From Pseudomonadota bacterium (lineage in GTDB: Bacteria; Pseudomonadota; Gammaproteobacteria; Burkholderiales; Burkholderiaceae_C), in NCBI GenBank assembly GCA_020161065.1, contig JAIUPH010000010.1, positions 1-64,000 on the forward strand: a stretch of 64,000 nt of DNA, written 5' to 3'. The position numbers and the translations under genes are program-made. Positions 30,833 through 58,579 of the stretch are shown in pieces; the stretch's first letter is position 1, and each line of letters starts with the position of its first letter. The notes beneath the pieces are model-generated. The model saw nothing but the letters and a program-made list of their open reading frames with translations. It did not search any database and was not told the origin of the DNA.

Positions 30833-30847
30833 GGGGCGCGATGATGC

Positions 30848-31606
30848 CTAACGCGGCTCGGCTGCCGGCGGCGCCTCGGCATCGTCGAGGCCGCGGCCGG
30901 CGCCCAGGCCCAGCAGGCCGCCGGCGGCCATGCCGGCACCGCCGCCGCCGCCCGCACCGCCGCCGCCACCAGCGCCACCACCGCCACCACCACCGCGGCC
31001 ACCGCCGTCACCGGCTCCGCGGCCGCCGGCGCCACCGCCGCCGCGCGCGCCGGACGCCGCGCTGCGCAGCGGGCCTTGCTTGGGGATCGCCAGTTCGGCC
31101 GGCACCGGGTCGAGGTCGAGCACCTCGCGGATGAAGTCGCGCAGCGACAGCACCAGCGCCGCGGTCTCGATGCTGCGCCCGGCCGCCATGTCGGTGGCGG
31201 CCTGCGCGGCCAGCCGCACCTGCTCGGCCGTGCCGAGCAGCAGCACGTCGGACAGCGCGGCCTCCACCGCGTCGCGGATGCGCCGGCGGCGCTCGGCGCC
31301 GGGGCGCGGCGAGGCGCTGTCGCCGTTGTCGCCGTTGCCGTCGCCGGGTGCGGCGCGGCCGCGCGCATCGCGCAGGTGGCTGGGGTCGACGCCGAGGTCG
31401 CCGGTGAACGATCCGCCCAGCGTCTTGTAGGCGGCGATCAGCGTCTTCAGGCGTTCGTTGATCTGCCGGTTCTGGCGCTCGCGCCGCTGCTGGATGCGCT
31501 GCATCACCAGCAGCCGGATGCCCACCGCCACCACGGTAACGAGGATCAGCCCCAGCAGCGTGGACAGCAGGCCTTGCCAGGAGCTGAAGTCGATCGAGCT
31601 GCGCAT
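30848..31606 (-). CDS. Membrane-anchored protein with Gly-rich tail
   Basis: A 252-residue protein of unknown function. One membrane segment (LLSTLLGLILVTVVAVGIRLL, about residues 13-33) is followed by a basic amphipathic helix (MQRIQQRRERQNRQINERLK), a folded-looking helical region (RRRIRDAVEAALSDVLLLGT, SLRDFIREVLDLD) and a tail of nearly 50 residues made of Gly with Ala and Arg. Orientation suggests a cytoplasmic body. Similar single-pass hypothetical proteins are known, but no role can be assigned. The Gly tail corresponds to a CCG/CCA-type repeat tract at about 30935-31045. Confidence 0.65.
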   Translation of the reverse strand: MRSSIDFSSWQGLLSTLLGLILVTVVAVGIRLLVMQRIQQRRERQNRQINERLKTLIAAYKTLGGSFTGDLGVDPSHLRDARGRAAPGDGNGDNGDSASPRPGAERRRRIRDAVEAALSDVLLLGTAEQVRLAAQAATDMAAGRSIETAALVLSLRDFIREVLDLDPVPAELAIPKQGPLRSAASGARGGGGAGGRGAGDGGGRGGGGGGGAGGGGGAGGGGGAGMAAGGLLGLGAGRGLDDAEAPPAAEPR

Positions 31607-31628
31607 GGGCGCAAGGGTAGCAGCGCGC

Positions 31629-31651
31629 GGCGCGGGTGCCGGTACCGCGCC
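31629..31651 (-). terminator. Hairpin at end of phosphonate/phosphoester operon
   Basis: GGCGCGG (31629-31635) and CCGCGCC (31645-31651) form a 7-bp stem with a 9-nt loop, five bases beyond the phoD stop on the minus strand. No T tract follows. It also lies 22 bp upstream of the next gene, so it may instead act on that leader. Confidence 0.35.
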
Positions 31652-31655
31652 GGGC

Positions 31656-33260
31656 TCAGGCGGCCTGCGGCCCGGCCACGCCGTCGTCGACCACGAAGCG
31701 CGCCAGCGTGGCGATGCCGCTGTCGGGCCGCGTCACGTCGTCGACCACGCGCAGCGTCGTCGTCCAGCGTTGCGGGGTGACGTCGGCCACCGCGTAACCG
31801 CGGCGGTCCGCGCGCGCCAGCAGGACGTGCGGGTTGTGGTCGGCGATCGCTTGTGCGCGGGCCTGCGGGGTGCCGCTGGCCGACGCGATCGAGGTGCCGC
31901 AGAACTCGCTGCCGATGACCGGCGAGCGCGGATCGGCAAAGTCCGCCAGCACGCGGCAGACGTAGTTCTGGTGGATGTCGCCGCCCAGGATCACGGTGTT
32001 GCGCGGCGCGGCGCCGCGCACCGCGTCGAGCAGGCGCTGGCGCGCGGCGGGATAGCCGTCCCAGGTGCTGGCGTGGTAGCGCTCTTCGGGCAAGGGCTGG
32101 TAGTTGCGCCGCGCGAAGATGGTCTGCTGCGCCAGCACGCTCCAGCGCGTGCCGGCGCGGGCATCCTGCGCCAGGCCTTCTTCGACCCAGCGCTCCTGGC
32201 GCGCGCCGAGCATGCTGCGGGCGGGGTCCAGCAGTTCGGGGCAGGCCTGCGGCGTCACCGCGGCCAGCGGCGCGCCGCCCGGCGGGCGGCAGGCCTGGCG
32301 GTCGCGGTACTGCCGCGTGTCCAGCGCGTGGAAGCGCAACAGCCGGCCCCAGGCATGCCGCTCGTGGATGCGCAGGCCGTCGAGCGTGCCCAGGCCATCG
32401 ATGCCGGAGGTCAGCACCGAAGCGCGCAGCGGCATGTTCTCGTAGAAGGCCTGGTAGGCGGCGCCGCGCCGGCGCAGGAAATCGTCGGCCGCGCCGCTGC
32501 CGTGCAGGCCGGCGTAGTCGTTCTGCACTTCGTGGTCGTCCCAGGTGACGATCCAGGGGCAGGCCCGGTGCGCGGCCTGCAGCAACGGGTCGCTGCGGTA
32601 CAGCGCGTAGCGGTCGCGGAAGTCCGCCAGCGTGCGCGCCGCCGGTAGCGTGTGGTGGCGCACCAGCGGCGGGCTCGGCGGCTTGGCGGGCATCGCGTAC
32701 TCGTAGATGTAGTCGCCCAGGAACAGGATCAGGTCCAGGTCTTCGCCGAGCAGGTGGCGGTAGCCGGCGTAGTGGCCTTGCTCCCAGCGCTGGCACGAGA
32801 CGAAGGCGAAGCGCGCGCGTTCGGGCAGCGCGTCGGCGGCCGGCGCGCTGCGGGTGCGCGCCGTGGGCGTGACCGCGTCGCCGTGCATGAAGCGGTAGAA
32901 GTACCAGCGGCCCGGCTGCAGGCCCGAGACTTCGAGGTGCACCGCGTGGCCGAGCGCGGCCCGCGCCTCGGCCTGCCCGGCGCGCACGATGCGGCGGAAG
33001 GCCTCGTCCTCGGCCACTTCCCAGCGAACGGTCAGCGATTCGGGCAGCGGCACGCGCGGCGTGTCGGCGGCCACGGTGCCCGGCACCGGACCGTCGAGCA
33101 GCCGCGTCCACAGCACGAAGCCGTCGGCCGTCGGTGCGCCGCTGGCGACGCCGACGGGGAACAGCTCGCGCTGCTTCAGCGTGGCCGACCAGGCCCAACG
33201 CGGCAGCGAAGCGGCGGTGGCCGCCGCGGCAGCCATGGACAGCAGCTCGCGGCGCTGCAT
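31656..33260 (-). CDS. phoD: PhoD-family phosphodiesterase/alkaline phosphatase
   Basis: A 534-residue exported metalloenzyme. The N-terminus MQRRELLSMAAAAATAASLP is a probable Tat signal. The PhoD core follows: an N-terminal Ig-like PhoD_N domain (VGVASGAPTADGFVLWTRL), then FVSCQRWEQGHYAGYRHL, ILFLGDYIYEYAM, IVTWDDHEVQNDYAGL and ILGGDIHQNYVCRVL, which carry the Fe/Ca ligands. PhoD enzymes hydrolyse phosphomono- and phosphodiesters outside the cytoplasm. It is the last gene of the twelve-gene operon, starting in a TGATG overlap with the preceding hydrolase. Its export contrasts with the other two phosphohydrolases here, which have no signal peptide. Confidence 0.9.
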   Translation of the reverse strand: MQRRELLSMAAAAATAASLPRWAWSATLKQRELFPVGVASGAPTADGFVLWTRLLDGPVPGTVAADTPRVPLPESLTVRWEVAEDEAFRRIVRAGQAEARAALGHAVHLEVSGLQPGRWYFYRFMHGDAVTPTARTRSAPAADALPERARFAFVSCQRWEQGHYAGYRHLLGEDLDLILFLGDYIYEYAMPAKPPSPPLVRHHTLPAARTLADFRDRYALYRSDPLLQAAHRACPWIVTWDDHEVQNDYAGLHGSGAADDFLRRRGAAYQAFYENMPLRASVLTSGIDGLGTLDGLRIHERHAWGRLLRFHALDTRQYRDRQACRPPGGAPLAAVTPQACPELLDPARSMLGARQERWVEEGLAQDARAGTRWSVLAQQTIFARRNYQPLPEERYHASTWDGYPAARQRLLDAVRGAAPRNTVILGGDIHQNYVCRVLADFADPRSPVIGSEFCGTSIASASGTPQARAQAIADHNPHVLLARADRRGYAVADVTPQRWTTTLRVVDDVTRPDSGIATLARFVVDDGVAGPQAA

Positions 33261-34525
33261 CAGGGCGGCTCCAGCGGCCGTCCCTGCATGCCGTCGGCCG
33301 CGACCCCGAGGTGGCGCAGCACGGTCGGCGCGATGTCGATCAGCGACACCGGCTCGCTTCGCTGGCCGCTGCGAAAACCGCCGCCGGTCAGGCAGAGGAA
33401 GGGATGCTGTTCACGCGCGCCCAAGCCGCCATGCTGCGCGCAGCCGACCGCCGACGAACTGCTGAACGGGCTGCGCACCGCCACGCTGCGGCCCATCACG
33501 CCATGCGCATTGACGGCGTCGTCGCAGCGCAGCGCCAGCGCCAGGCCCAGCGGGCCGTCGGTGGGCAGGCCGATCTCGGACAAGGCTTCGCCGCTGACCA
33601 CGCGGCCGGTGAAGTCCTGCTGCTGCAGCCAGCGTTGGACGGCGGCCATGCGCGAGCGCGCCTCCGGCGCGAAATACAGCAGCGCCGCGTTGCCATTGGG
33701 CGCCACCACCAGGTCCGACGATTCAGGGCCTTCCTTCCAGCCGGCCTGCACGAGCAGCGCGTCGAGGTCGATCTGCCGGCCGACGGTCTCCATCCCGTGG
33801 TCGGAACAGGCGACGAGCAGGATGTCGTCGCCGCCCGGGTCCAGCGCCTGCACGGTGCGCCGCACCTGGTCGACGCAGGCGTCGGCTGACGCGATCATCG
33901 CCAGGTGCTCGGACGACCCCAAGGCGCTGTGATGCGCGGTGTGGTCGGGCTCGGACAGCCACAGCACGGCCAGCGCCGGCGCGCGCTCGCGCAGCACCTC
34001 GCCGCAGAAGCGATCGGTCATCGCGCGGTCGCCGGCCGCGCCCACCTCGATGGCCAGGCCATCGGCCAGCGCCTGCCCGCCGGGCCCGCGTGAGCCGCTG
34101 CGGTGATAGACATGGCCGAAGCCGTCGGGGTCCTGCAAGTACGCGGCGCCGGGCGAGACGTTGGACATCACGATCGTCCCGCCCTGGCCGGCCAGCCGCT
34201 CGGCCCAGGTCGGGCGGCGCAGCGTGCGGCCGGTGGCGCGCTGCAGGCGCTGCAGGAAGTCCGGCTTGCCGGCCGACAGCCGCACGAGTTGGCCGTTCTC
34301 GATCAAGACCATGGTGTTGCCGAGCAGGCCATGGGCCATGGGCAGGCAGCCCGTGGCCATCGAGGCCGAACTGGTCCGCGTCGTCGACGGGAAGACGCTG
34401 CGCGCCGCGCTGAAGTCGGCACCGGCCGCGCGCAGCGCCGACAGGCAAGGGGCCGTGGCCGGGTCGATCTGCTCGGCGCCGAGGCTGTCGCAGACCACGA
34501 CGACGGCGCGGCGCCGGCGCTTCAT
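33260..34525 (-). CDS. Alkaline-phosphatase-superfamily hydrolase (PhnA/NPP-like)
   Basis: A 421-residue cytoplasmic zinc hydrolase. Metal and nucleophile motifs are present: VVVCDSLG (Asp13), FPSTTRTSSASMATG with the nucleophile Thr (probably Thr49), LWLSEPDHTAHH, ACSDHGMETVG and QHGGLGAREQHPF. This is the type I phosphodiesterase/nucleotide pyrophosphatase group, to which phosphonoacetate hydrolase PhnA also belongs. Lack of a signal peptide and its place in an operon with a phosphonoacetaldehyde-type dehydrogenase make a phosphonoacetate-hydrolase role attractive, but it is equally compatible with a phosphodiesterase. Overlaps its upstream neighbour by ATGA and phoD by one base. Confidence 0.82.
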   Translation of the reverse strand: MKRRRRAVVVVCDSLGAEQIDPATAPCLSALRAAGADFSAARSVFPSTTRTSSASMATGCLPMAHGLLGNTMVLIENGQLVRLSAGKPDFLQRLQRATGRTLRRPTWAERLAGQGGTIVMSNVSPGAAYLQDPDGFGHVYHRSGSRGPGGQALADGLAIEVGAAGDRAMTDRFCGEVLRERAPALAVLWLSEPDHTAHHSALGSSEHLAMIASADACVDQVRRTVQALDPGGDDILLVACSDHGMETVGRQIDLDALLVQAGWKEGPESSDLVVAPNGNAALLYFAPEARSRMAAVQRWLQQQDFTGRVVSGEALSEIGLPTDGPLGLALALRCDDAVNAHGVMGRSVAVRSPFSSSSAVGCAQHGGLGAREQHPFLCLTGGGFRSGQRSEPVSLIDIAPTVLRHLGVAADGMQGRPLEPP

Positions 34526-35325
34526 GTCGAGCCGCCGGCGCGCGACGGCAGCGTCGATCGGTCGAGGTAGTCGTGAAAGTGGACGGTGATCTGATCGGCC
34601 TGCAGGAACACCACCGCATAGGCCGGCGGCTCGTGGCTCTTGGGCACCGGCGCGACCGTGTGCAGATCGAACGGCACCTGGTGGTTGAGCCCGCGCATCG
34701 TCGAGAACGGCACGCCGCGCCAGCTGCCGCACACCGGGCGGTGGACATGGCCGAAGAACAAGTGGCGCAGTTGGTGGCGCCGCCGCGCGGCGAGGTCGAC
34801 GAAGGGCTCCGGGTTGGCGACGCCGATGCGGTCGAGGCAGGGGATGCCGATGTCGAACGGCGGGTGGTGCATGAACAGGCAGAAAGGGCGATCGCCGAGC
34901 CGTTCGACCTGGCTGGCCAGCCAGGCCTGCCGCTCGGCGCAGTACAGGCCGCCGTTGCGCCCTTCGTCCAGCGTGTCGAGCATCAGCAACGCTGATTCCG
35001 CGAGGTCGAAGCGGCCCTGCACGAAGCCGTTGCCGTCGTCCAGCGCGTCGCGGAAGGCCGCTGCGAAGGGCGCGCGAAGGTCATGGTTGCCGAGCAGCGC
35101 GAACCAAGGGAAGGGCAGCCGTTCGAGCTGGCCGCGCAGCGCGGCGTAGGCGGCCGCCTCGCCGCGGTGGGCAAGGTCGCCGGTGATCACGCAGCAGGCG
35201 GCGTCGCGGTGATGTTCAAGGATGTCGTCGATGCAGGCCACCAGGCGGGCATGGGGGTCCAGCCCGTGCAGGATCTCGCCCGGCGCGACGAGGTGGGGGT
35301 CGGTGATCTGGATGAGCTTGGTCAT
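34522..35325 (-). CDS. Calcineurin-like phosphodiesterase (CpdA/GpdQ type)
   Basis: A 267-residue binuclear metallophosphoesterase. All five metal-binding motifs are visible in order: QITDPHL, VITGDLAHRGE, LLGNHDLR, FMHHPPFD and FFGHVHRPV. The overall pattern is that of class III cyclic-nucleotide and glycerophosphodiester phosphodiesterases. There is no signal peptide, so it would act on an imported ester. It overlaps the ABC ATPase gene and the next hydrolase by ATGA on both sides, which ties it to the transporter. The substrate is open: glycerophosphodiesters, phosphonate monoesters or cyclic nucleotides are all possible. Confidence 0.87.
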   Translation of the reverse strand: MTKLIQITDPHLVAPGEILHGLDPHARLVACIDDILEHHRDAACCVITGDLAHRGEAAAYAALRGQLERLPFPWFALLGNHDLRAPFAAAFRDALDDGNGFVQGRFDLAESALLMLDTLDEGRNGGLYCAERQAWLASQVERLGDRPFCLFMHHPPFDIGIPCLDRIGVANPEPFVDLAARRRHQLRHLFFGHVHRPVCGSWRGVPFSTMRGLNHQVPFDLHTVAPVPKSHEPPAYAVVFLQADQITVHFHDYLDRSTLPSRAGGST

Positions 35326-36977
35326 GCGCAAACCGCTTGGGGATGGGCCTGCACGGCGTGCAGGGCGCTGGCCTCCAGCAACAGCCGCGTGTAGCCGCTG
35401 CGTGAGGCGCGGAACACCTCGTCGGTGGGCCCGGCTTCGCAGACCTCGCCGTGGCGCAGCACCACCACGCGGTCGGCCATGCGGCGGATCACGCCGAGGT
35501 CGTGGCTGATGAAGAGATAGGCGGTGCCGGTGTTGCGCTGCAGCTCGAGCAGCAGGTCCAGCACCTGTGCCTGCACCGAGACGTCCAGCGCCGAGGTGAT
35601 CTCGTCGCAGACGATGAGGTCGGGCTCCGCCGCGAAGGCGCGCGCAATCGCCACGCGCTGCTGCTGGCCGCCCGACAGCTGGCGCGGGTAGCACTCCAGC
35701 AGCGCCGGGTCCAGGTGCATGGCGCGCATCAGCGCTTGCGCGCGCTCGCGCAGTGCGGGGCCGCGCAGGGCGGTGAACATCGCCAGCGGCCGCTCCAGGA
35801 TGGTGGCGATGCGCTGGCGCGGATTCAGCGACGACAGCGGGTCCTGGAACACGATCTGGATGCGCCGGCGCAGCGCCAGCGGCCGCTCCGAGGCCTTGGC
35901 CGCCAGCGCCTGGCCTTCGAACTGCAGGGCGCCGCCGGTCGGCCCCATCAGCCCGGCGACCAGCGAGGCTGCCGTCGACTTGCCGCTGCCCGATTCGCCG
36001 ACCAGGCCCAGGGTCTCGCCGCGGTCGATGGCGAACGACAGCTCGGCCAGCGCCGGCCGCGTTGGAGCGGCCGCGCGCTGCCACCAGCTGCGGCGGCGCG
36101 CCGGGTATGCGAACGCCAGCCGCTGGGCGACCAGCAGCGGCGCGGCGTCGTGCGCGCCCGGCGGCCGCGTGCGCGGCGGCGGCTCGGCGTCGAGGCGGGG
36201 AATCGCGGCGATGAGCTGGCGTGTGTAGGCATGCGCCGGCGCGCCGAAGATCGTCGACGCATCGCCGCGCTCGACGACGCGGCCCTGGTGCATCACGATG
36301 ACCTGGTCGCACATGCGCGAGATCACGCCGAGGTCGTGGCTGACGTAGATGAGCGCGGCGTTGAAGCGCTGGCGCAGGCTGCGCACCAGCTCCAGCACCT
36401 GCACCTCGGTGGTCTTGTCGAGCGCGGTGGTCGGCTCGTCCAGCACCAGCAGGCCGGGGTCGCCGGCCAGTGCCGCGGCGATGACCACGCGCTGACGCTG
36501 GCCGCCCGACAGCTCGTGCGGATAGCGCGCGCAGATGGCCGCGGGGTCCGGCAGCCCAGTGGCCCGGAACAGCTCCAGCGTGCGCGCGCGTGCCTCGGCG
36601 GCCGTAGCGCCGCGCAGGTGGCGCACGGCTTCGTCGACCTGCGCGCCGATGCGCAGGTGCGGCGTCAGCGAACTCAAGGGGTTTTGCGGCACGAAGGCGA
36701 TGTGCCGGCCGCGCAGCGCGCGCCGGCCGGCTTCGTCGAGCTGCAGGATGTCGGTCCCGGCGATGCGGACCGTGCCCGCCGTGATCACGCCGCCGGCGCG
36801 GCAATGGCCCAGCAGGGCGCGCGCGACGGTGGATTTGCCCGACCCGCTTTCGCCGACGATGCCCAGGCTGCTGCCCGCCTCGACCGTGAATTCGACGCCG
36901 CGCACCGCGCTGACGATGTGGCCGTCGCTGCGGCGGTAGCCGATGTCCAGGCCGCGGACTTCGAGCGCGGCGTTCAT
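35322..36977 (-). CDS. Dipeptide-type ABC importer, fused double ATPase
   Basis: A 551-residue protein made of two complete ABC ATPase domains, equivalent to DppD and DppF joined. The first domain has Walker A GESGSGKS (residues 42-49), Q loop PQNPLSSL, signature LSGGQRQR and Walker [13 protein letters not shown]; the second has GESGSGKS near residue 326-333, [19 protein letters not shown] and [12 protein letters not shown]. Each ends in the usual dipeptide-family C-terminal extension. It powers the adjacent permease pair. In the second domain Walker B reads CDEITSALD, the common form in this family. Overlaps the permease gene (ATGA) and the phosphodiesterase gene (ATGA). Confidence 0.93.
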
Positions 36978-37819
36978 GCTGCGTCCTGCCCGCGCGTGGC
37001 GTCGAGGCCTAGCGCGCGCGCCAGCGCTTCGGCGGCGAAGTTCAGCCCCACCACCAGCGTCGAGATGAAGACGGCCGGCGCCAGCACCAGCCAGGGCGCG
37101 TAGGCCAGCTGGCCGACGCCTTCGGCCACCATCAGGCCCCAGTCGGGCGTCGGCGGCGAGATGCCCATGCCCAGAAACGACAGCGCGCTGAGCAGCAGGA
37201 TGGCGTGCGACATGCGGATGGCGAACTCCACGTAGACCACGTCCAGCGTGTTCGGCAGCAGCTCGCGCAAGATGATCGACGCCGTGCTCTCGCCGCGCAG
37301 TTGCGCCGCCTTCACGTAGCCCAGGTTCACCTGCGTCAGCGCCTGCGCGCGAACGATGCGGATCACGCCCGGAAAGTAGACCAGCCCGATCAGCACGATC
37401 AGCACCGGCAGCGATTCGCCGAAGCCCACGGTGAACAAGGCGACGAACAGGATGCCCGGCAAGGCGAGCTTGAGGTCGACGATGCGCATCATGACGTCGT
37501 CGAACACGCCGCCGACGTAGGCTGCCGTCACGCCGAGGATGCTGCCCACCGTCACCGCGACGACGACGCCGGTGAACGCGGCCAGCAGCGCCGTGCGCCC
37601 GCCCCACAGCAACCGCGACAGGTAGTCGCGGCCCAGCACGTCGGTGCCCAGCCAGAACTCGGCGCTCGGCGGCTCGGCGCGGCCGCCGTTCAGCGCCATC
37701 GGGTCGTAGGGCGCAATCGCCGGCGCGGCCAGCGCGATGGCCAGGTGCAGCACGACGAGCGCGATGCCGACGACGGCAACGGGCCGCAGCAGCGCGTGAA
37801 GGTTGATCCTGAACATCAT
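36974..37819 (-). CDS. Dipeptide-type ABC importer permease (DppC-like)
   Basis: A 281-residue permease with six membrane segments. The N-terminal OppC-type segment (VAVVGIALVVLHLAIALAAP) is followed by APYDPMALNG, FWLGTDVLGRDYLSRLLWGG, and the cytoplasmic EAA loop around VKAAQLRGESTASIILRELL that contacts the ATPase. The pattern is that of DppC/OppC. It pairs with the DppB-like protein encoded 6 bp upstream and overlaps the ATPase gene by ATGA. Confidence 0.93.
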   Translation of the reverse strand: MMFRINLHALLRPVAVVGIALVVLHLAIALAAPAIAPYDPMALNGGRAEPPSAEFWLGTDVLGRDYLSRLLWGGRTALLAAFTGVVVAVTVGSILGVTAAYVGGVFDDVMMRIVDLKLALPGILFVALFTVGFGESLPVLIVLIGLVYFPGVIRIVRAQALTQVNLGYVKAAQLRGESTASIILRELLPNTLDVVYVEFAIRMSHAILLLSALSFLGMGISPPTPDWGLMVAEGVGQLAYAPWLVLAPAVFISTLVVGLNFAAEALARALGLDATRGQDAA

Positions 37820-37825
37820 GATGGT

Positions 37826-38800
37826 TCAACGGCTCCCGGCGCTGCCGGGGCTGCGCGCACGCGGGTCGAGCGCCACCACGGCAAGGTCGGCCAGCAGGTT
37901 CATCGTCACGACGGCCAGCGCCGCCAGCAGGCTGACGGCCTGCACGATCGGCACCTCGCGCTTGTCCACCGCCTGCAGCAGGATCATGCCGAGGCCGGGA
38001 TAGCCGAACACCTTCTCGACGACGACGATGCCGCTGAGCAGCCCCGCCACGTACAGCGCCGCCGAGTTCAGCGCCGGAACTACCGACGCGGGCAGCGCGT
38101 GCCGCAGGATCAGCCGCAGTTCACCCAGCCCGGTGAAGCGCGCGCGTTCCACGTAGTCGCTGGCCAGCGCCTCGATCAGGCCGGTGCGGATGAGCTGCAC
38201 GAGGTGGGCGATCGAGCCGAACACGATGGTGGCCACCGGCAGCATCGAGACCGCCAGCAGCGCCGACGGCGGCGCGTCGGCAAAGGCCAGGATGACGGCC
38301 GGGAACAGCGGGATCCAGATCGCGAAGATCAGCACCAGCAGGTTGCCCGACGCGAACTCGGGGATCGAGTAGCCGATCACCGCGCCCATCGACGCCAGCG
38401 TGTCGGGCAGCCGCCCGCGCCAGTAGGCGGCCACGATGCCCAGCAGCAGCGACACCGGAATGGCCACCAGCGCGGTGACGACGGCCAGCAGCAGCGAGTT
38501 CTTCACCGGCTCGCGGATGATGTCGATGACCGGCGTGCCGCCGAGGATGGTCTTGCCGAAATCGCCGCGCACGGCGCCGCCCAGCCAATGCAGGTAGCGC
38601 AGCGGCGCCGGCTGGTCGAGGCCGAGCTCGCGCCGCTTTCGCGCCAGGTCGGCGGGGCTCATCATCGCGATCTCGTCGGCCGTCAGGCTGACCTCCAGCG
38701 CGTCGCCGGGCAGGACCTCGGTGGCGATGAACACCAGCATCGAGGCCAGCAACAGGGTCAGCGCGTACAGCCCGACGCGCCGCAGCAGGGGCATCGCCAT
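37826..38800 (-). CDS. Dipeptide-type ABC importer permease (DppB-like)
   Basis: A 324-residue permease with six membrane segments: YALTLLLASMLVFIATEVLP at the N-terminus, the DppB extracytoplasmic domain with RRELGLDQPAPLRYLHWLGG and RGDFGKTILGGTPV, and the EAA loop near YVERARFTGLGELRLILRHA. A second ATG at 38794 is also possible; 38800 is used as the first. It lies 16 bp after the substrate-binding gene and 6 bp before the DppC-like gene. Confidence 0.92.
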   Translation of the reverse strand: MAMPLLRRVGLYALTLLLASMLVFIATEVLPGDALEVSLTADEIAMMSPADLARKRRELGLDQPAPLRYLHWLGGAVRGDFGKTILGGTPVIDIIREPVKNSLLLAVVTALVAIPVSLLLGIVAAYWRGRLPDTLASMGAVIGYSIPEFASGNLLVLIFAIWIPLFPAVILAFADAPPSALLAVSMLPVATIVFGSIAHLVQLIRTGLIEALASDYVERARFTGLGELRLILRHALPASVVPALNSAALYVAGLLSGIVVVEKVFGYPGLGMILLQAVDKREVPIVQAVSLLAALAVVTMNLLADLAVVALDPRARSPGSAGSR

Positions 38801-38816
38801 GCTCGTCCTCGCCGGG

Positions 38817-40403
38817 TCAGGACTTCCACACTTCGTCGAAGCGCGTCGACCAGAACTGCGAGTGGTTGCGCAGGTCGTGCACGTTGGGCTTGTGGATGAT
38901 GAGGTTGCGCCGCCCGCCGGCCGAGATGATGGGCACCTCGTCGCGCACGATCTCCTGCATGCGAACGTAGTGGGCGCGCCGCTTGTCGGCCGCCGGCTCG
39001 GCCAGCGACTTCTGGTACAGCGCCATGTACTCGTCGCAGCCCGGGCCGCTCCAGTAGCCGCTTTCGTTGTTGTCGGGGCGCAGCCGGTACAGGCTGACGC
39101 CAGGATTGCGCGGACCGGCCGGCGTGTAGGCGAAGCGGTGCTTGCGCGTCTTCTCGGCATCCTCGACGCGCCATTGGCGGTAGCCGTCGCTCGGCCGTTG
39201 CTCGATGGGCAGCGTGATGCCGGCGTCCTTCACCGACTCGGCCAGCACCTGGAACACGCGCGGCACCTCGGGCCAGGTGGCGGCGAAGTAGAAGGTCGGC
39301 AGCTTGATGCCGCCGGCGTGCCCGGCTTCGGCCAGCAGCGCCCGCGCGCGCGCCACGTCGCGCAGGCGCGGCAGCGGCACGAAGGCGGCGTTGGCCGGCG
39401 TCAGGTGCGAGTCGTTGCCCACCCAGCCGGCCGACTTGCCGTACACGATGCGGATGATCTTCTCGCGGTCGATCGCCAGCCCCAGCGCCTGGCGCACGCG
39501 CTTGTCGGCGAGCGGGCTGCCTTCGATCTTGGGGATCACCATCAGCGCCTGGTCGCCGCTGCTCGACAGGTTGTACTTCAGCTCGGGCGTGCGCTCCAGG
39601 TCGGGCAGCAGTCCGGGGTCGACGCCGATCACGGCGTCGAACAGCCCGCCGCGAAAACCGTTGAGCGCGCTTTCCATGCGCCCCGGCGAATTGACCACTT
39701 CGAGCCGGTCGAGATAGGGGAAGCCTTTGCGCCAGTACTTCTCGTTGCGCTCCAGGATGATGCGGCGCTTGGGGTCGAGGCTGACGATCTTGAACGGCCC
39801 GGTGCCGATGCCGGCCATGCCGATGGCGTCCTTGTCGGCGGCCGGCATGATCATCAGGTGGTACTCGGCCAGCACGTAGGGGAACTCGCTGTTCGGCGCG
39901 TCCAGCGTCATGCGCACCTTCTTGCCGGCCTTCTCGACGTTGACGATCTGCTTGGCGTAGCCGGTCGAGGCCTGGTGGAACTTGAACGACGACACCACGT
40001 CGTCGGCCGTCATCTCGCGACCGTCATGGAACATCACGCCCTCGCGCAGCGTGATCTCCCAGACCTTCAAGTCGGCGCTGGGCTCCCACGCGGTGGCCAA
40101 CTCGGGCTGCACCTCCAGCTTCTCGTCGACCCAGGTCAGTGCGTTGTAGGCGCTGCGGTTGTTGAGGTCCAGCCAGTGATGCGGATGGCGGCCGGTGCGC
40201 GCGTCGCCGATGCGGTTGTTGGGGTAGGTGTTGGTGTAGACGAAGGTGCCGCCTCGCCGCGGCGCCACGGCTGGCGCTGCCGGTGCCGCCAGCGCGGCAT
40301 CGGCCGCCAGCCAGTCGGCCAGCGACAGCGCCGCCGTGGCGCCGGCACCGGCCAGCAGCCGGCGGCGCAGGGTGTTCGGAGCCTGGAAATCGTCGCTTGT
40401 CAT
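38817..40403 (-). CDS. Dipeptide-type substrate-binding protein (SBP_bac_5)
   Basis: A 528-residue exported receptor of the DppA/OppA family. The N-terminus RRRLLAGAGATAALSLADWL is a probable Tat signal. The mature protein shows FVYTNTYPNNRIGDARTG, LREGVMFHDGREMTADDVVS (the SBP_bac_5 signature), GTGPFKIVSLDPKRRIILER and DKRVRQALGLAIDREKIIRI. Although the fold is 'dipeptide', the family binds many ligands including nickel, sugars and glutathione. With phosphonate genes upstream and three phosphohydrolases downstream, a phosphorus compound is a reasonable guess for the ligand. It is 20 bp after the aldehyde dehydrogenase gene. Confidence 0.9.
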   Translation of the reverse strand: MTSDDFQAPNTLRRRLLAGAGATAALSLADWLAADAALAAPAAPAVAPRRGGTFVYTNTYPNNRIGDARTGRHPHHWLDLNNRSAYNALTWVDEKLEVQPELATAWEPSADLKVWEITLREGVMFHDGREMTADDVVSSFKFHQASTGYAKQIVNVEKAGKKVRMTLDAPNSEFPYVLAEYHLMIMPAADKDAIGMAGIGTGPFKIVSLDPKRRIILERNEKYWRKGFPYLDRLEVVNSPGRMESALNGFRGGLFDAVIGVDPGLLPDLERTPELKYNLSSSGDQALMVIPKIEGSPLADKRVRQALGLAIDREKIIRIVYGKSAGWVGNDSHLTPANAAFVPLPRLRDVARARALLAEAGHAGGIKLPTFYFAATWPEVPRVFQVLAESVKDAGITLPIEQRPSDGYRQWRVEDAEKTRKHRFAYTPAGPRNPGVSLYRLRPDNNESGYWSGPGCDEYMALYQKSLAEPAADKRRAHYVRMQEIVRDEVPIISAGGRRNLIIHKPNVHDLRNHSQFWSTRFDEVWKS

Positions 40404-40423
40404 TGCTTGTTCCTCGTCACCGC

Positions 40424-41872
40424 TCACCAAGGCAGCGTGAACGTCTTGCAGGTGGTGAACGACTTGATGGCTTCCTGCACGCCTTCCTTGTAGCCCAGGC
40501 CCGAGTCCTTGATGCCGCCGAACGGCGTCAGCTCGATGCGGTAGCCGGGCACTTCCCAGAGGTTGACGGTGCCGACCTTCAGCTCGCGCGCGAAGCGGGT
40601 GGCGTCGTCCAGCCGGTTGGTGCAGATGCCCGACGACAGGCCGAAGGCCGTGCCGTTGGAGATGGCGATGGCCTCGTCGATCGTCGCGAAGGTGATGATC
40701 GGCGACACCGGGCCGAAGGTTTCCTCGCGCACCACGGTCATCTCGGGGCGCACGCGGTCCAGCACCGTCGGCGCGTACAGCGCGCCGTCGCGGCGGTTGC
40801 CCACCAGCAGCCGCGCGCCTTGCGCCACGGCCTCGTCCACCACCTGCTGGAAGCGGCACGCGGCCGCCTCGTCGATCACGGTGCCCATCTCGTTGGCCGG
40901 GTCCATCGGGTCGCCGAAGGTCCAGGCGCGCGTCTTGGCCACCACGCGTTCGGTGAAGGCGGCGGCCACCTTCTCGTGCACCAGCATGCGCTTGACGGCG
41001 GTGCAGCGCTGGCCCGAGTTCTTGTACGAGCCCTGCACCGCCAGGTCGCTGGCCTTGTCGAGGTCGGCGTCGTCCATCACGATCAGCGGGTCGTTGCCGC
41101 CGAGTTCCAGCACGATGCGCCGGTAGCCGGCCTTGGCGGCGATGTATTTGCCGATCGGCACGCCGCCGGTGAAGGTGACGAGGTCGACATGGCGGTTGGT
41201 GATCAGCTCGTCGGCGATCTCGCGCGGGTCGCCGGTCACCACCTGCAGCATCTCGGGCGGCAGGCCGGCCTCGTACAGCAGGTCGGCGAAGTAGTAGGCC
41301 GACAGCGGCACCTTCTCCGAAGGCTTGAGCACCATGCGGTTGTTGGTGGCCACCGCCGGCACCACCTTGTGCGCCACCTGGTTCATCGGGTGGTTGAAGG
41401 GGGTGATGGCGGTGATCACGCCGAGCAGCGGCTCGCGCGTGGTGATCACCTTGCGCTTCTTGCCGTGCGGCGTGAGGTCGCACGAGAACACCTGGCCGTC
41501 GTCGCGCAAGGCTTCGTTGGCGCCGAAGTTCAGCACGTCGGCGACGCGGCCGATCTCGTAGACGCTGTCCTTCTTCGACAGGCCCGACTCGCTGGTGATC
41601 AGCGTCGACGCTTCGTCGGTGCGCTGGCGCAGCAGCGCCGCGGCGCGGTTCATGATGGCCGAGCGCTCGTAGCGCGACAGCGTGGGCCCATAGGCCTGCG
41701 CGATGTCGAAGGCGCGGCGCACTTCGTCGACGCCAGCCATCGGCGCCGTGCCGACGCGCTGGCCGGTGAAGGGGTTGCGCACGTCGATGGCGCGCGCGGT
41801 GCGCCGCTTCTCGCCGCCGATGCGCAGCGCCTCGGCGCGGAACGCGGTGGCGTCTTCCATCACGGTGCTCAT
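40424..41872 (-). CDS. phnY: Aldehyde dehydrogenase, phosphonoacetaldehyde type
   Basis: A 482-residue NAD(P)-dependent aldehyde dehydrogenase. Visible are the Rossmann segment ITPFNHPMNQVAHKVVPAVA, LKPSEKVPLSAYYF, TFTGGVPIGKYIAA, the general base in VLELGGNDPLIVMDDADL and the catalytic Cys290 in NSGQRCTAVKRM. The sequence resembles the phosphonate-cluster dehydrogenases (PhnY) that oxidise phosphonoacetaldehyde to phosphonoacetate. Overlap with the iron alcohol dehydrogenase gene and proximity to phnCDE support that reading. The symbol is a family-level assignment; a general aldehyde dehydrogenase cannot be excluded. Confidence 0.8.
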   Translation of the reverse strand: MSTVMEDATAFRAEALRIGGEKRRTARAIDVRNPFTGQRVGTAPMAGVDEVRRAFDIAQAYGPTLSRYERSAIMNRAAALLRQRTDEASTLITSESGLSKKDSVYEIGRVADVLNFGANEALRDDGQVFSCDLTPHGKKRKVITTREPLLGVITAITPFNHPMNQVAHKVVPAVATNNRMVLKPSEKVPLSAYYFADLLYEAGLPPEMLQVVTGDPREIADELITNRHVDLVTFTGGVPIGKYIAAKAGYRRIVLELGGNDPLIVMDDADLDKASDLAVQGSYKNSGQRCTAVKRMLVHEKVAAAFTERVVAKTRAWTFGDPMDPANEMGTVIDEAAACRFQQVVDEAVAQGARLLVGNRRDGALYAPTVLDRVRPEMTVVREETFGPVSPIITFATIDEAIAISNGTAFGLSSGICTNRLDDATRFARELKVGTVNLWEVPGYRIELTPFGGIKDSGLGYKEGVQEAIKSFTTCKTFTLPW

Positions 41873-42966
41873 GCGGCCTCCTTCAATGCGGTGCCGATGA
41901 AGTTCTTGCCGCGCGCGCCGCTGAGCGCCGCGGTGATCATCTGCTCGGCCTGCTCGTCGCTGATGCCGTAGTCGGTGAAGCGCGTCTTCACGCCCAGGCG
42001 CTCGATGAATGCGGCCAGCCGCTCGGGCGCGCGGTCCAGCGCGCCGAGCGCGCTGGCGAGCACGGCGTCGCGCCGCGCGTCGCGGCCGAGCGCGCGCTCC
42101 AGCACCATCGGCAGCGAGAACGAGCAGGCAATGCCGTGCGGCAGCCCGTAGCGCAGCGTCATCTCGTACGAGATGGAATGCGCCAGCGCCGTGCGCGTGT
42201 TGGAGAACGCCATGCCGGCCTTCAGCGCCGCCAGCGCCATGCGGCCGCGCAGCTCGATGTCGTCCAGCCGCTCCATCAGCCGCGGCAGCGTGTCCAGGAT
42301 GTCGTGCACGGCGGCCACCGCGAAGGTGTCGGACACCGGGTTGGCGTTGACGTTCCAGATCGACTCCAGCGCGTGCGACAGCGCATCGAGCCCGCTTTGC
42401 AGCGTGACCGCGGCGGGCAGCGAGAGCATCAGCTCGGGGTCGATGACGGCGACGGCCGGCCAGGTCTCCGGCAGGTGCAGCGAGTACTTCTTCTGCGCGC
42501 CGCGGTCCCACACCGTGGCCCAGGGCGTCACCTCGCTGCCGGTTCCGGCGGTGGTGGGCACGGCGACGAGCGTCTTCACCGCCGCCGGCTTGAAGCCCTT
42601 GCCGGCCGCCAGCGCGGCGATCAGGTCGTCGAAGCGGCCGCTGGCGGTGCGCACCATCAGCGCCTTGGCGGTGTCGATGGCGCTGCCGCCGCCCACCGCC
42701 ACCAGCACCTGGGCGGCTTGCGGGTCGCGCCAGAAGCCTTCGTACAGCGCGCGCAGCTCGGTGACGTCGGGGTTGGGCTGCACGTCGTCGATCACGCCGG
42801 CCAGCCGATCGCCGAGCAACTGCTGCAGCCGGCCCAGCAGGCCCAGCGCGCGCGCTTCCGGAAAGGTCACGACCACGGCGCGCTGGCTGCCCAGCAGCGC
42901 CGGCAGGGACGACAGGGCCCCCGCCCCGTACACGCTGCGCACGGGGTTGAAGTATTCGCAGGACAT
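41869..42966 (-). CDS. Iron-containing alcohol dehydrogenase, phosphonate-associated
   Basis: A 365-residue group III (iron) alcohol dehydrogenase. Motifs: the NAD loop VAVGGGSAIDTAKALMV, VPTTAGTGSEVTPWATV, the metal ligands in GLDALSHALES (Asp and His), LAHSISYEMTLRYGLPHGIACSF (shown by its ends LAHSISYEMT and LPHGIACSF, each with His). Close relatives in phosphonate clusters act as phosphonoacetaldehyde reductases or, in reverse, oxidise 2-hydroxyethylphosphonate. With the aldehyde dehydrogenase overlapping at its 3' end, oxidation of an alcohol through aldehyde to acid is the natural local reading. A 76-bp gap separates it from phnE. Confidence 0.82.
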   Translation of the reverse strand: MSCEYFNPVRSVYGAGALSSLPALLGSQRAVVVTFPEARALGLLGRLQQLLGDRLAGVIDDVQPNPDVTELRALYEGFWRDPQAAQVLVAVGGGSAIDTAKALMVRTASGRFDDLIAALAAGKGFKPAAVKTLVAVPTTAGTGSEVTPWATVWDRGAQKKYSLHLPETWPAVAVIDPELMLSLPAAVTLQSGLDALSHALESIWNVNANPVSDTFAVAAVHDILDTLPRLMERLDDIELRGRMALAALKAGMAFSNTRTALAHSISYEMTLRYGLPHGIACSFSLPMVLERALGRDARRDAVLASALGALDRAPERLAAFIERLGVKTRFTDYGISDEQAEQMITAALSGARGKNFIGTALKEAA

Positions 42967-43042
42967 GAAGGAAGACCTCTAGGTGGATGCCGGCGCGCCG
43001 GGCGGCGCGGGCTCGAAGACATCGGCGCGGCGGCGGTTCATC

Positions 43043-43858
43043 TCAACGCGCGCCCTTCTGGATCCACGCGCGCAGCCGGGTCGACACGTAGTCGGCCACC
43101 ATCACCATCACGATGATCACGACGATGCAGGTGGCGGTGTCCTGGTACTGGAACAGCTTCATGCTGCCCACCAGCTCGAAGCCGATGCCGCCGGCGCCGA
43201 CCATGCCCAGCACGGTGGCCTGGCGCAGGTTGGTCTCGAAGCGGTAAAGCACCACCGCGATCCACGCCGTGACGACCTGCGGCAGCACCGCGAAGATCAC
43301 CGTCTGCACCGGCCCGGCGCCGGTGGCGCGCAGCGCCTCGATCGGGCCCTGGTCGATCTCCTCGATCGATTCGCTGAAGAACTTGCCCAGCATGCCCGCG
43401 CCGTGCACCGCCAGCGCCAGCACGCCGGGAAACGGCCCCAGCCCGACCGCGGCGACGAACACCAGCGCCAGGATGATCTCGTTGATGCCGCGCGTGACGT
43501 TGAACACCTGGCGCGTGAAATGGAACACCGCCATGTTCGGCGTGAGGTTGCGCGCCGCGAAGAAGCACACCGGCACCGCCAGCACCACCGCCAGCAGCGT
43601 GCCCCAGATGGCGATCTGGATGGTCTCGATCGCCGGCACCCACAGCTTGTCGAGGAAGCCCCAGTTCGGCGGCACCATGCGCGCCAGGAAGTCGCCGATC
43701 CAAGGCAGCCCCTTGCCCAGTTCGCCGAAGCTGACCTGGGCGCCGCGCGCAGCCCACCACAAGGTGCCGATGGCCAGCACGCCGGCGGCCAGCCGCGGCC
43801 ACCAGCCCAGGCCGCCGGCGGGGCGGCCCAGCAAGAGCGCGTAAGAACCGATCTTCAT
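43043..43858 (-). CDS. phnE: Phosphonate ABC transporter permease PhnE
   Basis: A 271-residue permease with about six membrane segments. The PhnE pattern is seen in WVPAIETIQIAIWGTLLAVV, VCFFAARNLTPNMAVFHFTR, NVTRGINEIILALVFVAAVG, and the EAA loop IEALRATGAGPVQTVIFAVLPQ. The C-terminus YQDTATCIVVIIVMVMVADYVS matches the family. It forms the membrane channel for the phosphonate importer with PhnC and PhnD and follows phnC by 4 bp. Confidence 0.93.
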   Translation of the reverse strand: MKIGSYALLLGRPAGGLGWWPRLAAGVLAIGTLWWAARGAQVSFGELGKGLPWIGDFLARMVPPNWGFLDKLWVPAIETIQIAIWGTLLAVVLAVPVCFFAARNLTPNMAVFHFTRQVFNVTRGINEIILALVFVAAVGLGPFPGVLALAVHGAGMLGKFFSESIEEIDQGPIEALRATGAGPVQTVIFAVLPQVVTAWIAVVLYRFETNLRQATVLGMVGAGGIGFELVGSMKLFQYQDTATCIVVIIVMVMVADYVSTRLRAWIQKGAR

Positions 43859-43862
43859 GATG

Positions 43863-44675
43863 TCAGGCCTCCTCCAGCGCGAACGACTGCAGCGGCGGCG
43901 GCGCGGCCGCGTCGGCGGCCGGGCTGATGCGGCCTTCGCCCTGGTCCAGCCCGGGGTAGATGCGGTGCAGCACCTCGTCGCTCAGCGCGCCGGGGCCGCC
44001 TTCGAAGACGATGCGCCCGCCCGAGACGCCGACGATGCGTTCGCCGAACTCGCGCGCGTACTCGATCTGGTGCAAGTTGCAGACCACGGTGATGCCCAGC
44101 TCGCGGCTGGCCTGCTTGAGGTAGTTGAGCACCGTGCGCGAGGTCTTGGGGTCGAGGCTGGCCACCGGCTCGTCGGCCAGGATGATCTTGGGCTGCTGCG
44201 CCAGCGCGCGGGCGATGCCCACGCGCTGCTTCTGCCCGCCCGACAGCGTGTCGGTGCGCAGCTCGGCCTTGTCCTCCAGCTCCACGCGGCGCAGGCATTC
44301 GCGCGCGATGCCGATGTCGCGACGCGGAAACACCTGCAGCCACGAGGCCGGCCCCGGCATCGAGCCCAGCCGCCCGGTGAGCACGTTCTTCAGCACCGAC
44401 AGCCGCGGCACCACGTTGTAGTGCTGGAAGATCATCGCCACCTGGCGGCGCAGCGCGCGCAGGTCGGCGCCTTGCGGCTTGACGAGCTGGCCGTCGATGC
44501 GGATGTCGCCCTGCGTCGGCTCGGTCAGGCGGTTGATGCAGCGAAGCAGCGTCGACTTGCCGGCGCCCGAGGGGCCCAGCACGACGAGGAACTCGCCGGG
44601 GGCGACGTCGAGGTCGATGCCCTTGAGCGCCTCGAACTCGCCGTAGCGCTTGGTGAGGCCGCGGATCTCGATCAC
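43863..44675 (-). CDS. phnC: Phosphonate ABC transporter ATPase PhnC
   Basis: A 270-residue ABC ATPase with Walker A GPSGAGKS (residues 34-41), [21 protein letters not shown] typical of PhnC (cited in part: [15 protein letters not shown]), signature [15 protein letters not shown] and Walker [15 protein letters not shown] short C-terminal extension is Ala/Pro-rich. The GTG start at 44675 overlaps the phnD stop as GTGA. It energises import of phosphonates through PhnE. Confidence 0.94.
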
Positions 44676-45550
44676 TTCATCTTCCTCAGGTCGAGGTTCA
44701 GCGCCTTGGCGGTCTCGCGGATCACGTTGTAGGCCGCGTCGGTGGTCGGGTGGAAGCCGTTGAGCTGGCCCTGGTCGGACCAGGGGATGTCCTTCACCTC
44801 CATGAAGGCGGCCTGCACGCGCTTCTTGAGCGCCGGGTCGAGGTCCTTGCGCCAGACGGTGGGCGACTCGGGGATCGGCTCCGACTTCCACACGACGACC
44901 AGGTCTTCGCGCTTGGCCAGGCCCTTGGCGATGGCGGCGTCGAGGATGCGGTCGGCAATCGCCACCGCGTCGACCTTCTTGTTCTGCACCGCCACCGCGT
45001 TGGAATCGTGCGAGCCCGAGAAGACCACGCGGCCGAAGTCCTTGTCGGGGTTGAAGCCGGCCTTGATGAGCCCGGCCTTGGGGAACAAGTGGCCCGAGGT
45101 GGAGCTGGGGTCGACGAAGGAGAAGGTCTTGCCCTTCAGGTCGGGCACGGTCTTGATGCCGCTGTCGGCGCGCGCCACGATCAGCGAGTGGTAGTAGGTG
45201 CGGCCGGCCTTCTTGGTCTCGGCGACGGCGAAGGCCTCGATGTCGGCCACCGTGGTGCCCAGCACGTAGGAGAAGGGGCCGAGGTAGGCCACGTCCAGCC
45301 GCTTGCTGCGCAGCGCCTCGATCACGCCGTTGTAGTCGGCGGCGACGAAGGGCTTGACCGGCATGCCCAGCGCCTTCTGCAGCATGTCCATCATCGCCTG
45401 GCTGTTGGCGATCATCGCGCGCGAATCTTCCGACGGGATCAGCCCCACCGTCAGCACGTCGGCCGCGCGCGCGGCCGGCGCCAGGGCCGCCAGCGGCAGC
45501 CCCAGCAGGGCCGGCGCACCGGCGATCAGGGAACGGCGGGTGACTTTCAT
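44672..45550 (-). CDS. phnD: Phosphonate-binding protein PhnD
   Basis: A 292-residue exported receptor. The N-terminus VTRRSLIAGAPALLGLPLAA is a Tat-like signal. The PhnD fold is shown by VLTVGLIPSEDSRAMIANSQ, VAYLGPFSYVLGTTVADIEA, DLKGKTFSFVDPSSTSGHLF (the phosphonate phosphate-binding loop STSGH) and WRKDLDPALKKRVQAAFMEV. First gene of the operon; its start lies 175 bp from the divergent lysR regulator. Ligand range of PhnD proteins covers aminoethyl- and other alkylphosphonates. Confidence 0.94.
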   Translation of the reverse strand: MKVTRRSLIAGAPALLGLPLAALAPAARAADVLTVGLIPSEDSRAMIANSQAMMDMLQKALGMPVKPFVAADYNGVIEALRSKRLDVAYLGPFSYVLGTTVADIEAFAVAETKKAGRTYYHSLIVARADSGIKTVPDLKGKTFSFVDPSSTSGHLFPKAGLIKAGFNPDKDFGRVVFSGSHDSNAVAVQNKKVDAVAIADRILDAAIAKGLAKREDLVVVWKSEPIPESPTVWRKDLDPALKKRVQAAFMEVKDIPWSDQGQLNGFHPTTDAAYNVIRETAKALNLDLRKMK

Positions 45551-45725
45551 CGCTTGTCTCCAGGTTGCTGAACGTGAGGCCCGTCAGTCTTGAGCTTGTG
45601 CGTGACGGCGCGGTGACGCAGGCCGCCACTGTCGGGCTGGCGGCCGCATTCATCCAATCCAAGTTCATGCACCCGTGTATTGAGGCAATCTATAGTTCGA
45701 CCGGGATAACACCGAGCGTGCCGTC
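45551..45725. promoter_or_regulatory. Divergent phnD/lysR control region
   Basis: ATTGAGGCAAT (45679-45689) is an interrupted palindrome (ATTG/CAAT around AGG), followed by CTATAG. It lies 37 bp before the regulator gene and about 130 bp before phnD, the usual place of a LysR recognition site. Just beyond it, GATAAC (45705-45710) could be the -10 of the lysR promoter. The region is visibly less GC-rich than its surroundings. Confidence 0.45.
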
Positions 45726-46589: not shown

Positions 46590-46603
46590 AGACCAGGGCT
46601 AAC

Positions 46604-46682
46604 GGATCGGGATCCGGATCCGGATCCGGGTTTCGCGGTCCGGATCGCGCCCTCCCGGCGGGACCGGGACCGGCCCGCCGGG
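46604..46682. repeat. GGATCC hexamer array and adjoining GC hairpin
   Basis: Between the convergent lysR and chemoreceptor genes lies GGATCG followed by three perfect tandem GGATCC units (46604-46627). Twenty-seven bases on, CCCGGCGGG (46654-46662) pairs with CCCGCCGGG (46674-46682) around an 11-nt loop. The hairpin may terminate both genes; there is no T tract. The array is self-complementary and could also fold. Confidence 0.7.
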
Positions 46683-46699
46683 CCGCAGGAGGCTAACCA

Positions 46700-55692: not shown

Positions 55693-55775
55693 GCGCCTCC
55701 CGCGCGGCCGTGGCGCGCGGCGCCGCCGGGCCTGCGCAGCCGCTGGTCGCCTGGGTCGATCGGGATCGGCATCGT

Positions 55776-55922
55776 TCAGCGCCCCTTCCTGGGCGGCATT
55801 CTGCGGCGCGGGCCCCGCGTCGGCCGCGCCGGCCGCGCCGGCCGTGTCAGCAGCCAGCCGGCCAGCGCCATCGGCAGCACGACGGCCGCCAGCGCGCCGA
55901 GGGCGCCCCAGACGTCGGCCAT
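55776..55922 (-). CDS. 48-residue membrane ORF between kdpC and kdpD
   Basis: An ATG at 55922, five bases after the kdpC stop, opens a 48-codon frame: one membrane segment (LGALAAVVLPMALAGWLL) and a strongly basic Arg/Pro tail ending RRMPPRKGR. GGAG lies about 13 bases upstream inside the end of kdpC. No family is recognised. The position inside the kdp operon and the clear membrane-plus-basic-tail pattern make a small regulatory peptide possible; chance coding in GC-rich DNA is also possible. The 83 bp to kdpD hold only its ribosome-binding site. Confidence 0.4.
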   Translation of the reverse strand: MADVWGALGALAAVVLPMALAGWLLTRPARPARPTRGPRRRMPPRKGR

Positions 55923-55927
55923 GGCGC

Positions 55928-56500: not shown

Positions 56501-56512
56501 GACGAGCACTCC

Positions 56513-58579
<2,067 letters not shown>

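Follow-up and report, generated by a model that had tools for sequence, protein, structure and literature searches.

The operon described here lies on the minus strand of the window, a stretch of 64,000 nucleotides (positions 1 to 64,000 of contig JAIUPH010000010.1, assembly GCA_020161065.1) from a Pseudomonadota bacterium placed by GTDB in the Burkholderiaceae_C of the Burkholderiales. It is probably a LysR-controlled operon for scavenging 2-hydroxyethylphosphonate (HEP) together with esters of HEP or of a like phosphonate, the phosphonoacetate hydrolase PhnA being supplied from elsewhere in the genome. In the proposed scheme, free HEP would be imported by PhnDCE, and small phosphonate monoesters (for example, glycerol or sugar esters) would enter through a family-5 receptor, DppBC-type permeases and a fused double ATPase. 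A GpdQ-like and an NPP-type phosphodiesterase would open the ester in the cytosol to give the free phosphonate and an alcohol, and an exported PhoD would act outside the cell on esters or phosphate. PsrA would oxidise HEP to phosphonoacetaldehyde, PhnY would convert phosphonoacetaldehyde to phosphonoacetate, and PhnA from another locus of the same genome would release acetate and phosphate.

The block consists of 12 open reading frames, all with stop-free translations, and spans 13.9 kb (31656-45550) in the order phnD, phnC, phnE, adh (psrA), aldh (phnY), sbp5, dppB, dppC, dppDF, gpdQ-like, npp and phoD. Neighbouring genes overlap by 4 bp at phnD/phnC, adh/aldh, dppC/dppDF, dppDF/gpdQ-like and gpdQ-like/npp and by 1 bp at npp/phoD, and are separated by 4 bp at phnC/phnE, 20 bp at aldh/sbp5, 16 bp at sbp5/dppB and 6 bp at dppB/dppC; the wide junction, with a gap of 76 bp (42967-43042), is that between phnE and adh. 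These coordinates bear out the initial annotation, which had 12 minus-strand genes with ten of the 11 junctions overlapping or no more than 20 bp apart. The gene families that it named are matched in all 12 cases by NCBIfam and Pfam models, those for dppB and dppC coming from Pfam alone and those for phnC, phnE and dppDF from NCBIfam alone. The arrangement goes beyond chance, as these blocks are found again in further families and classes. A scan of positions 30000-47500, weak at the window's 72.5% G+C, gave no promoter-like site and a sole terminator-like site inside the gpdQ-like gene; no RNA family reached its gathering score within the window.

The phosphonate half begins with phnD (44672-45550), which encodes the 292-residue substrate-binding protein of a phosphonate ATP-binding cassette transporter (TIGR03431, 268 bits against a cut-off of 261). 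It is followed by phnC, which encodes the ATP-binding protein and has a GTG start (43863-44675, 270 residues; TIGR02315, 320 bits, cut-off 266), and by the permease gene phnE (43043-43858, 271 residues; TIGR01097, 301 bits, cut-off 217), all three subunits of the PhnCDE importer exceeding their equivalog cut-offs. The adh gene (41869-42966) encodes the iron-containing alcohol dehydrogenase PsrA, a proposed HEP dehydrogenase of 365 residues (TIGR03405, Phn_Fe-ADH / PsrA, 535 bits, cut-off 424), in which D194, H198, H263 and H277, which we take to be the metal ligands, are invariant in 24 of 24 aligned sequences. The product of phnY (aldh; 40424-41872, 482 residues) is a phosphonoacetaldehyde dehydrogenase (TIGR03250, 873 bits, cut-off 636) whose best solved relative is 4i3t (568 bits). 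With the PsrA-type dehydrogenase, PhnY and PhnCDE all above curated cut-offs, this half of the operon does resemble an HEP pathway, as had been suggested.

The suggestion of a self-contained route to acetate and phosphate does not hold: no known hydrolase of C-P bonds is encoded in the operon, the npp gene is not phnA, and PhnA is located elsewhere in the genome. As a candidate for PhnA, the npp gene (33260-34525) was rejected at 27 bits against the TIGR02335 cut-off of 408; the best match to PhnA in the window is this gene itself, at an E-value of 0.006. No match to PhnW was found in the window at an E-value of 1e-6, and with neither PhnW nor PhnA the window operon is not a PhnWYA operon. The source genome has PhnA above the cut-off at two other loci, on contigs C40 (645 bits) and C35 (515 bits). 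The C35 locus (188046-200193) is a separate one of the aminoethylphosphonate type, with PhnA, PhnW and a PhnY 69% identical to that of the window; the PhnW here is one of two above the cut-off in the genome. At the C40 locus (5350-8619), the neighbours of PhnA are a TctC-type receptor and a GcvA-like regulator of the LysR type that scores under the GcvA cut-off, and this is possibly a phosphonoacetate locus. The source genome gave no match to PhnJ of C-P lyase, and none over the cut-off to PhnX or phosphoenolpyruvate (PEP) mutase.

In seven genomes of the family, including one of the same genus (G719), the order is phnD-phnC-phnE-phnA-adh-aldh, with phnA at the position of the window's 76-bp junction. 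The window operon thus looks like one of this type in which phnA is lacking and aldh is followed by an importer-phosphoesterase module. The 76-bp gap was rejected as the site of a phnA relic, since 69 of 1000 base shuffles reached its best local score of 31. The C40 PhnA was also rejected as the relocated phnA of such operons: in a quick phylogeny of 25 PhnA sequences it falls outside their clade and pairs with the PhnA of a psrA locus in another genome (G314), where phnA is on the opposite strand.

The substrate and direction proposed for PsrA, oxidation of HEP, come from the contexts of 38 PsrA loci that lack the family-5 receptor (13 from the order sample, namely 12 above the cut-off and that of G240; 20 further regions from the family sample; and five plasmid regions). 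Genes in these and the receptor loci were counted by tblastn with identity and length thresholds chosen for the analysis (among them 37% for adh, 55% for aldh and 45% of the query length), so that weaker or cut-off relatives are uncounted. Set apart from the locus counts are G603:C22 (in-frame TGA), a second Vibrio pelagius record (H9), the PsrA genomes of the phylum sample (G796, G903, G943 and G966) and, except for G240, matches to TIGR03405 below the cut-off in the order sample. The 38 loci include 31 with phnX, phnY or phnA (14, 16 and 18 loci, respectively) and 30 with phnC, phnD or phnE; phnW occurs in one. Because enzymes that act downstream are so common and PhnW so rare, phosphonoacetaldehyde at these loci probably stems from the dehydrogenase. 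A different setting, in a genome of the same order, G388 (L038, 3029-16960), brings together PEP mutase, phosphonopyruvate decarboxylase, a PsrA relative (38% identical and above the TIGR03405 cut-off), a CDP-glycerol glycerophosphotransferase-like gene, glycosyltransferases and a flagellin gene. It is possibly a cluster for an HEP-decorated flagellar glycan, the dehydrogenase probably running in the reducing direction, and it too ties the PsrA family to the pair HEP and phosphonoacetaldehyde, between which the locus contexts would place its activity. In the window, oxidation is the better reading, given PhnY, the importers and the hydrolases around the gene. Elsewhere, an FAD (flavin adenine dinucleotide) oxidoreductase of TIGR03364 (HpnW) lies between phnX and the PsrA gene in G577 (L099, 9941-13080), and in Comamonas antarctica (L134, 1-8990) genes for a phosphocholine-specific phospholipase C and an alkaline phosphatase family protein adjoin a lysR/phnDCE-psrA-phnX locus.

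The second half of the operon starts 20 bp after aldh with sbp5 (38817-40403), which encodes a family-5 (dipeptide-type) receptor of 528 residues with a leader that is Tat-like by eye (PF00496, 211 bits); its structure model has a predicted local distance difference test score of 46.6. It is followed by genes for a DppB-type permease (37826-38800, 324 residues; PF00528, 101 bits), a DppC-type permease (36974-37819, 281 residues; PF00528, 91 bits) and a fused double ATPase, DppDF (35322-36977, 551 residues; 471 bits to NF008453, in two stretches). The next gene (34522-35325) encodes a calcineurin-like phosphodiesterase of the GpdQ/SpdA kind, of 267 residues and with no leader seen (PF00149, 50 bits, cut-off 21.5), which matches PDB entry 2dxl at an E-value of 5e-23 and lies below the cut-off of NF050112, the SpdA cyclic-nucleotide phosphodiesterase model (244 against 400 bits). 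Its residues D9, H11, D50, N80, H153, H193 and H195, presumably the metal ligands of GpdQ/Rv0805-type metallophosphodiesterases, are invariant in nine of nine aligned sequences. The 421-residue npp product, also with no leader seen, matches PF01663 above the Pfam cut-off; the label of alkaline-phosphatase-superfamily hydrolase that it was first given is correct at the superfamily level, and at the family level it belongs to PF01663 and is not a phosphonoacetate hydrolase. The residues that we take to be its two-metal site and nucleophile (D13, T49, D194, H198, D242, H243 and H365) are invariant in eight of eight aligned sequences, and its predicted structure has the NPP phosphodiesterase fold, with NPP-family enzymes in all 50 of the matches listed and no PhnA chain among them. 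The last gene, phoD (31656-33260), encodes a PhoD-type phosphatase/phosphodiesterase of 534 residues with a Tat-like leader (PF09423, 340 bits, cut-off 27; PF16655, 97 bits), which is below the cut-off of the narrower NF058638 (471 against 1000 bits).

Relatives of the receptor show whether this module belongs with the phosphonate genes. They were sought in 72,556 plasmid records (E-value 1e-60) and in genomes of the order (399, E-value 1e-80), family (349) and phylum (249); a scan of GTDB genomes with two peptide patterns taken from two receptors found at least six loci. The receptor is rare, occurring in four of the order genomes, two of the family genomes and one of the phylum genomes, the source genome included, and in three plasmid records, all three with PsrA adjacent. 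All of the 14 distinct loci found, the window among them, were examined. PsrA is present in nine, at least one of adh, phnY, phnA and phnX in ten, and PhnW in two. None of the 14 is without a hydrolase of the phosphodiesterase-type or PHP-domain families; nine have a GpdQ-like one (eight of them with npp), four a PHP-domain one and one a PehA-like enzyme nearby. The importer and phosphonate halves are joined across Alpha- and Betaproteobacteria in more than five gene orders, such as phnA-adh-phnY-sbp5-dppB-dppC-dppDF-gpdQ-npp-porin-phoD in Variovorax paradoxus, sbp5...npp-phoD-phnA-adh-aldh in Xenophilus azovorans, phnA-adh-aldh-sbp5...phoD in Bordetella petrii, adh-sbp5...npp-phnA-aldh in a Burkholderiales metagenome-assembled genome and adh-TRAP transporter-sbp5...npp in G250; on Ensifer and Agrobacterium plasmids, psrA occurs with sbp5-dppBCDF and a PHP-domain hydrolase. 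The synteny check proposed with the initial annotation therefore finds the second importer and the hydrolases linked to phosphonate genes in distant relatives, and the Dpp-type importer module is no chance neighbour. A broader proposal, which falls a little short of being probable, is that the receptor clade with DppBC-DF constitutes a modular uptake unit for phosphonate esters that pairs with unrelated hydrolases (GpdQ-like with NPP, PHP-domain or PehA-like) and may on more than one occasion have become linked to pathways of hydrolytic phosphonate breakdown.

The divergent gene next to phnD (45726-46589, plus strand) encodes a LysR-type regulator of 287 residues (PF03466, 146 bits; PF00126, 79 bits) and belongs to the operon set. 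An orthologue is found in eight of the 14 receptor loci, counting the window, and in 27 of the 38 other PsrA loci. In the phnDCE-phnA-adh-aldh genomes, lysR is divergent next to phnD in six of seven; in the other (G589), a second, distant phnCDE set intervenes. An alignment of the intergenic regions of nine chosen loci has CTATAG in eight (TTATAG in L039) and TTG[AG]ATT[GT]G in all nine. The likely LysR operator/promoter block in the window, with the CTATAG core and TTGGATTGG, is predicted at 45647-45695 on the minus strand, the coordinates being counted from the alignment. A Pho box was rejected: the top-ranked matches of the window and six other loci, scoring 10 or 11, fall on the start region of lysR.

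Several points weigh against the assignment to HEP and its esters. The functions of the operon's enzymes are predicted from sequence, PhnA would have to act in trans from another locus, and the scheme gives no reason for a pair of cytosolic phosphodiesterases. Family-5 receptors bind very diverse ligands. Seven of the 38 PsrA loci have no consumer of phosphonoacetaldehyde counted (L035, L038, L046, L047, L100, L131 and L132); one of them, L038, is the biosynthetic cluster described above, and another, L100, stops at a contig end within a phnA match. The importer does not go with phosphonates in every case: adh, phnA, phnY and phnX are all missing from the fetched stretch at four receptor loci, namely L057, on a Rhodospirillales metagenome-assembled contig (69% identical), L064 in G240 (54%), L065 in G210 (51 and 57%) and L112 in G638 (51 and 59%). 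The importers of these loci may carry ordinary phosphodiesters. At L057, the 1.3 kb that remain beyond the gpdQ-like gene show no match to npp. At L064 (4679-13032), the receptor-dppBC-dppDF operon has no phn genes counted; the PehA-like gene is close to this operon, but outside it, and the PsrA-family gene of the same genome, below the cut-off at 343 bits, is on a different contig. The PehA-like enzyme itself scores 684 bits against NF045661, under the cut-off of 900, its nearest solved relatives being 2vqr, a multifunctional alkaline-phosphatase-superfamily protein (E-value 4e-162), and 2w8s, a phosphonate monoester hydrolase (E-value 8e-157). The PHP-domain hydrolases at four loci, two of which are annotated as CehA/McbA metallohydrolase and phosphotransferase, are barely above the Pfam cut-off in the three tested. 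At the level of whole genomes in the order, co-occurrence is significant only with the source genome (Fisher p 0.0066 with it, 0.095 without). Finally, at L058 the module occurs with phnCDE, phnA, phnY and phnW but adh is absent, and the substrate there may be esters of aminoethylphosphonate.

Other readings were considered. It is unlikely that two unrelated units simply adjoin here, phnDCE-adh-phnY for free phosphonate and a scavenging operon of the glycerophosphodiester type with the Dpp importer, two phosphodiesterases and PhoD, whose common theme is only phosphate starvation. Such a division would suit the GpdQ and NPP families, which are best known for phosphate diesters, as well as the receptor loci of G240, G210 and G638 without phn genes and the seven family genomes, G719 among them, in which phnDCE-phnA-adh-aldh occurs with no receptor in the fetched stretch. 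It would not suit the joining of the halves in ten of the 14 receptor loci, in two classes and in so many orders, or their spacing of only 20 bp in the window. Moreover, on quick trees in which several forks are unresolved, the receptor state changes at least six times (dehydrogenase) or at least four times (PhnY), which suggests that the module was joined or lost repeatedly rather than by one frozen accident. A role for the importer and phosphodiesterases in the use of 2-aminoethylphosphonate esters, such as deacylated phosphonolipid head groups, or of mixed phosphonate esters, with HEP one product among several, is quite improbable. GpdQ-type enzymes cleave glycerol diesters, the phospholipase C gene adjoins a psrA locus in C. 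antarctica, L058 combines the module with phnW, and one of the two PhnW of the source genome is encoded on a stretch with PhnA and PhnY; however, the window operon has PsrA and no PhnW, and among the receptor loci PsrA is the commoner of the two.

It is very unlikely indeed that PsrA is a reductase with which the operon converts phosphonoacetaldehyde to HEP for polymers of the cell surface, a role proposed for phpC genes of catabolic operons (PMC9381506). Membership of the family does not settle the direction; one member above the TIGR03405 cut-off is found in the cluster with PEP mutase, the decarboxylase and the glycerophosphotransferase. The source genome, however, has no PEP mutase above the cut-off, the operon has no PhnW, and PhnY adjoins adh in surroundings of importers and hydrolases, not transferases. 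Uptake and oxidation of HEP, with opening of its esters, remains the preferred interpretation of the window operon.

The hydrolytic PhnWYA and PhnWX pathways are established, and in the PhnWYA pathway for 2-aminoethylphosphonate PhnY likewise makes phosphonoacetate from phosphonoacetaldehyde, PhnA finishes the route and LysR regulators are usual (PMC10574752, PMC12366243, PMC11203657). The window operon differs in lacking PhnW and PhnA, in the proposed origin of phosphonoacetaldehyde from an iron-containing alcohol dehydrogenase and in the addition of a second importer and three phosphoesterases. Enzymes that feed other substrates into phosphonoacetaldehyde are PbfA, PbfC/D and PbfF, and for PbfF, oxidation of HEP is weighed as a less likely idea in a passage of PMC12366243. 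Loci annotated as psrA-phnY-phnA or psrA-phnX share the dehydrogenase family, LysR, PhnCDE and enzymes that consume phosphonoacetaldehyde, but lack the Dpp-type importer and phosphodiesterases that V. paradoxus, B. petrii, X. azovorans and others have. A precedent for a family-5 receptor feeding a phosphodiesterase is provided by agrocinopine, a phosphodiester imported through AccA and cut by AccF, according to PMC7356202 and PMC4526662. Solved structures related to the window receptor include AccA chains, although the similarity is only distant (8ch1, E-value 1e-14), and AccA/AccF handles sugar phosphate diesters with no phosphonate enzymes. PehA/PMH enzymes hydrolyse both phosphonate monoesters and phosphodiesters (PMC5649143); a relative occurs near the related receptor in G240, while the window has GpdQ-like and NPP-type enzymes in their place.

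The remainder of the window has other genes. A 252-residue frame after phoD (30848-31606, minus strand) is glycine-rich near its C-terminus and has no Pfam match at an E-value of 1e-5. A KdpD-type sensor kinase and a P-type ATPase, KdpB-like to judge from its position, are encoded at 52945-58579 (minus strand). An FtsZ-family protein (17991-19277, plus strand) and a penicillin-binding transpeptidase (3541-5343, plus strand) are perhaps parts of a division gene cluster.

The view in the initial annotation that no pathway with this gene set had been described stands to the extent that none was found in the open-licence literature, the scope of the search being set short of subscription journals; the psrA-phnY-phnA core, however, is already named by annotation in public records. 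Since no paper describing the set was found, it is taken to be a new variant of hydrolytic phosphonate catabolism with a conserved ester-uptake module. The marine pool of dissolved phosphorus includes polysaccharide-bound HEP esters, which, according to PMC5649143, are used through C-P lyase with release of ethylene, the ester-opening enzymes being only postulated as a PhoD-like phosphatase or a phosphonate monoester hydrolase. The operon provides a concrete alternative in Burkholderiales, with related loci in Rhizobiaceae: uptake by an importer and cleavage by ester hydrolases would be followed by an oxidative path to phosphate that bypasses C-P lyase. If the modular unit exists as proposed, polymer-bound or glyceryl HEP, a form of HEP found in dissolved organic matter, would have a dedicated route that avoids C-P lyase. 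If the assignment of PsrA is correct, the family, whose occurrence in catabolic operons PMC9381506 interprets as HEP synthesis, would gain a catabolic role.

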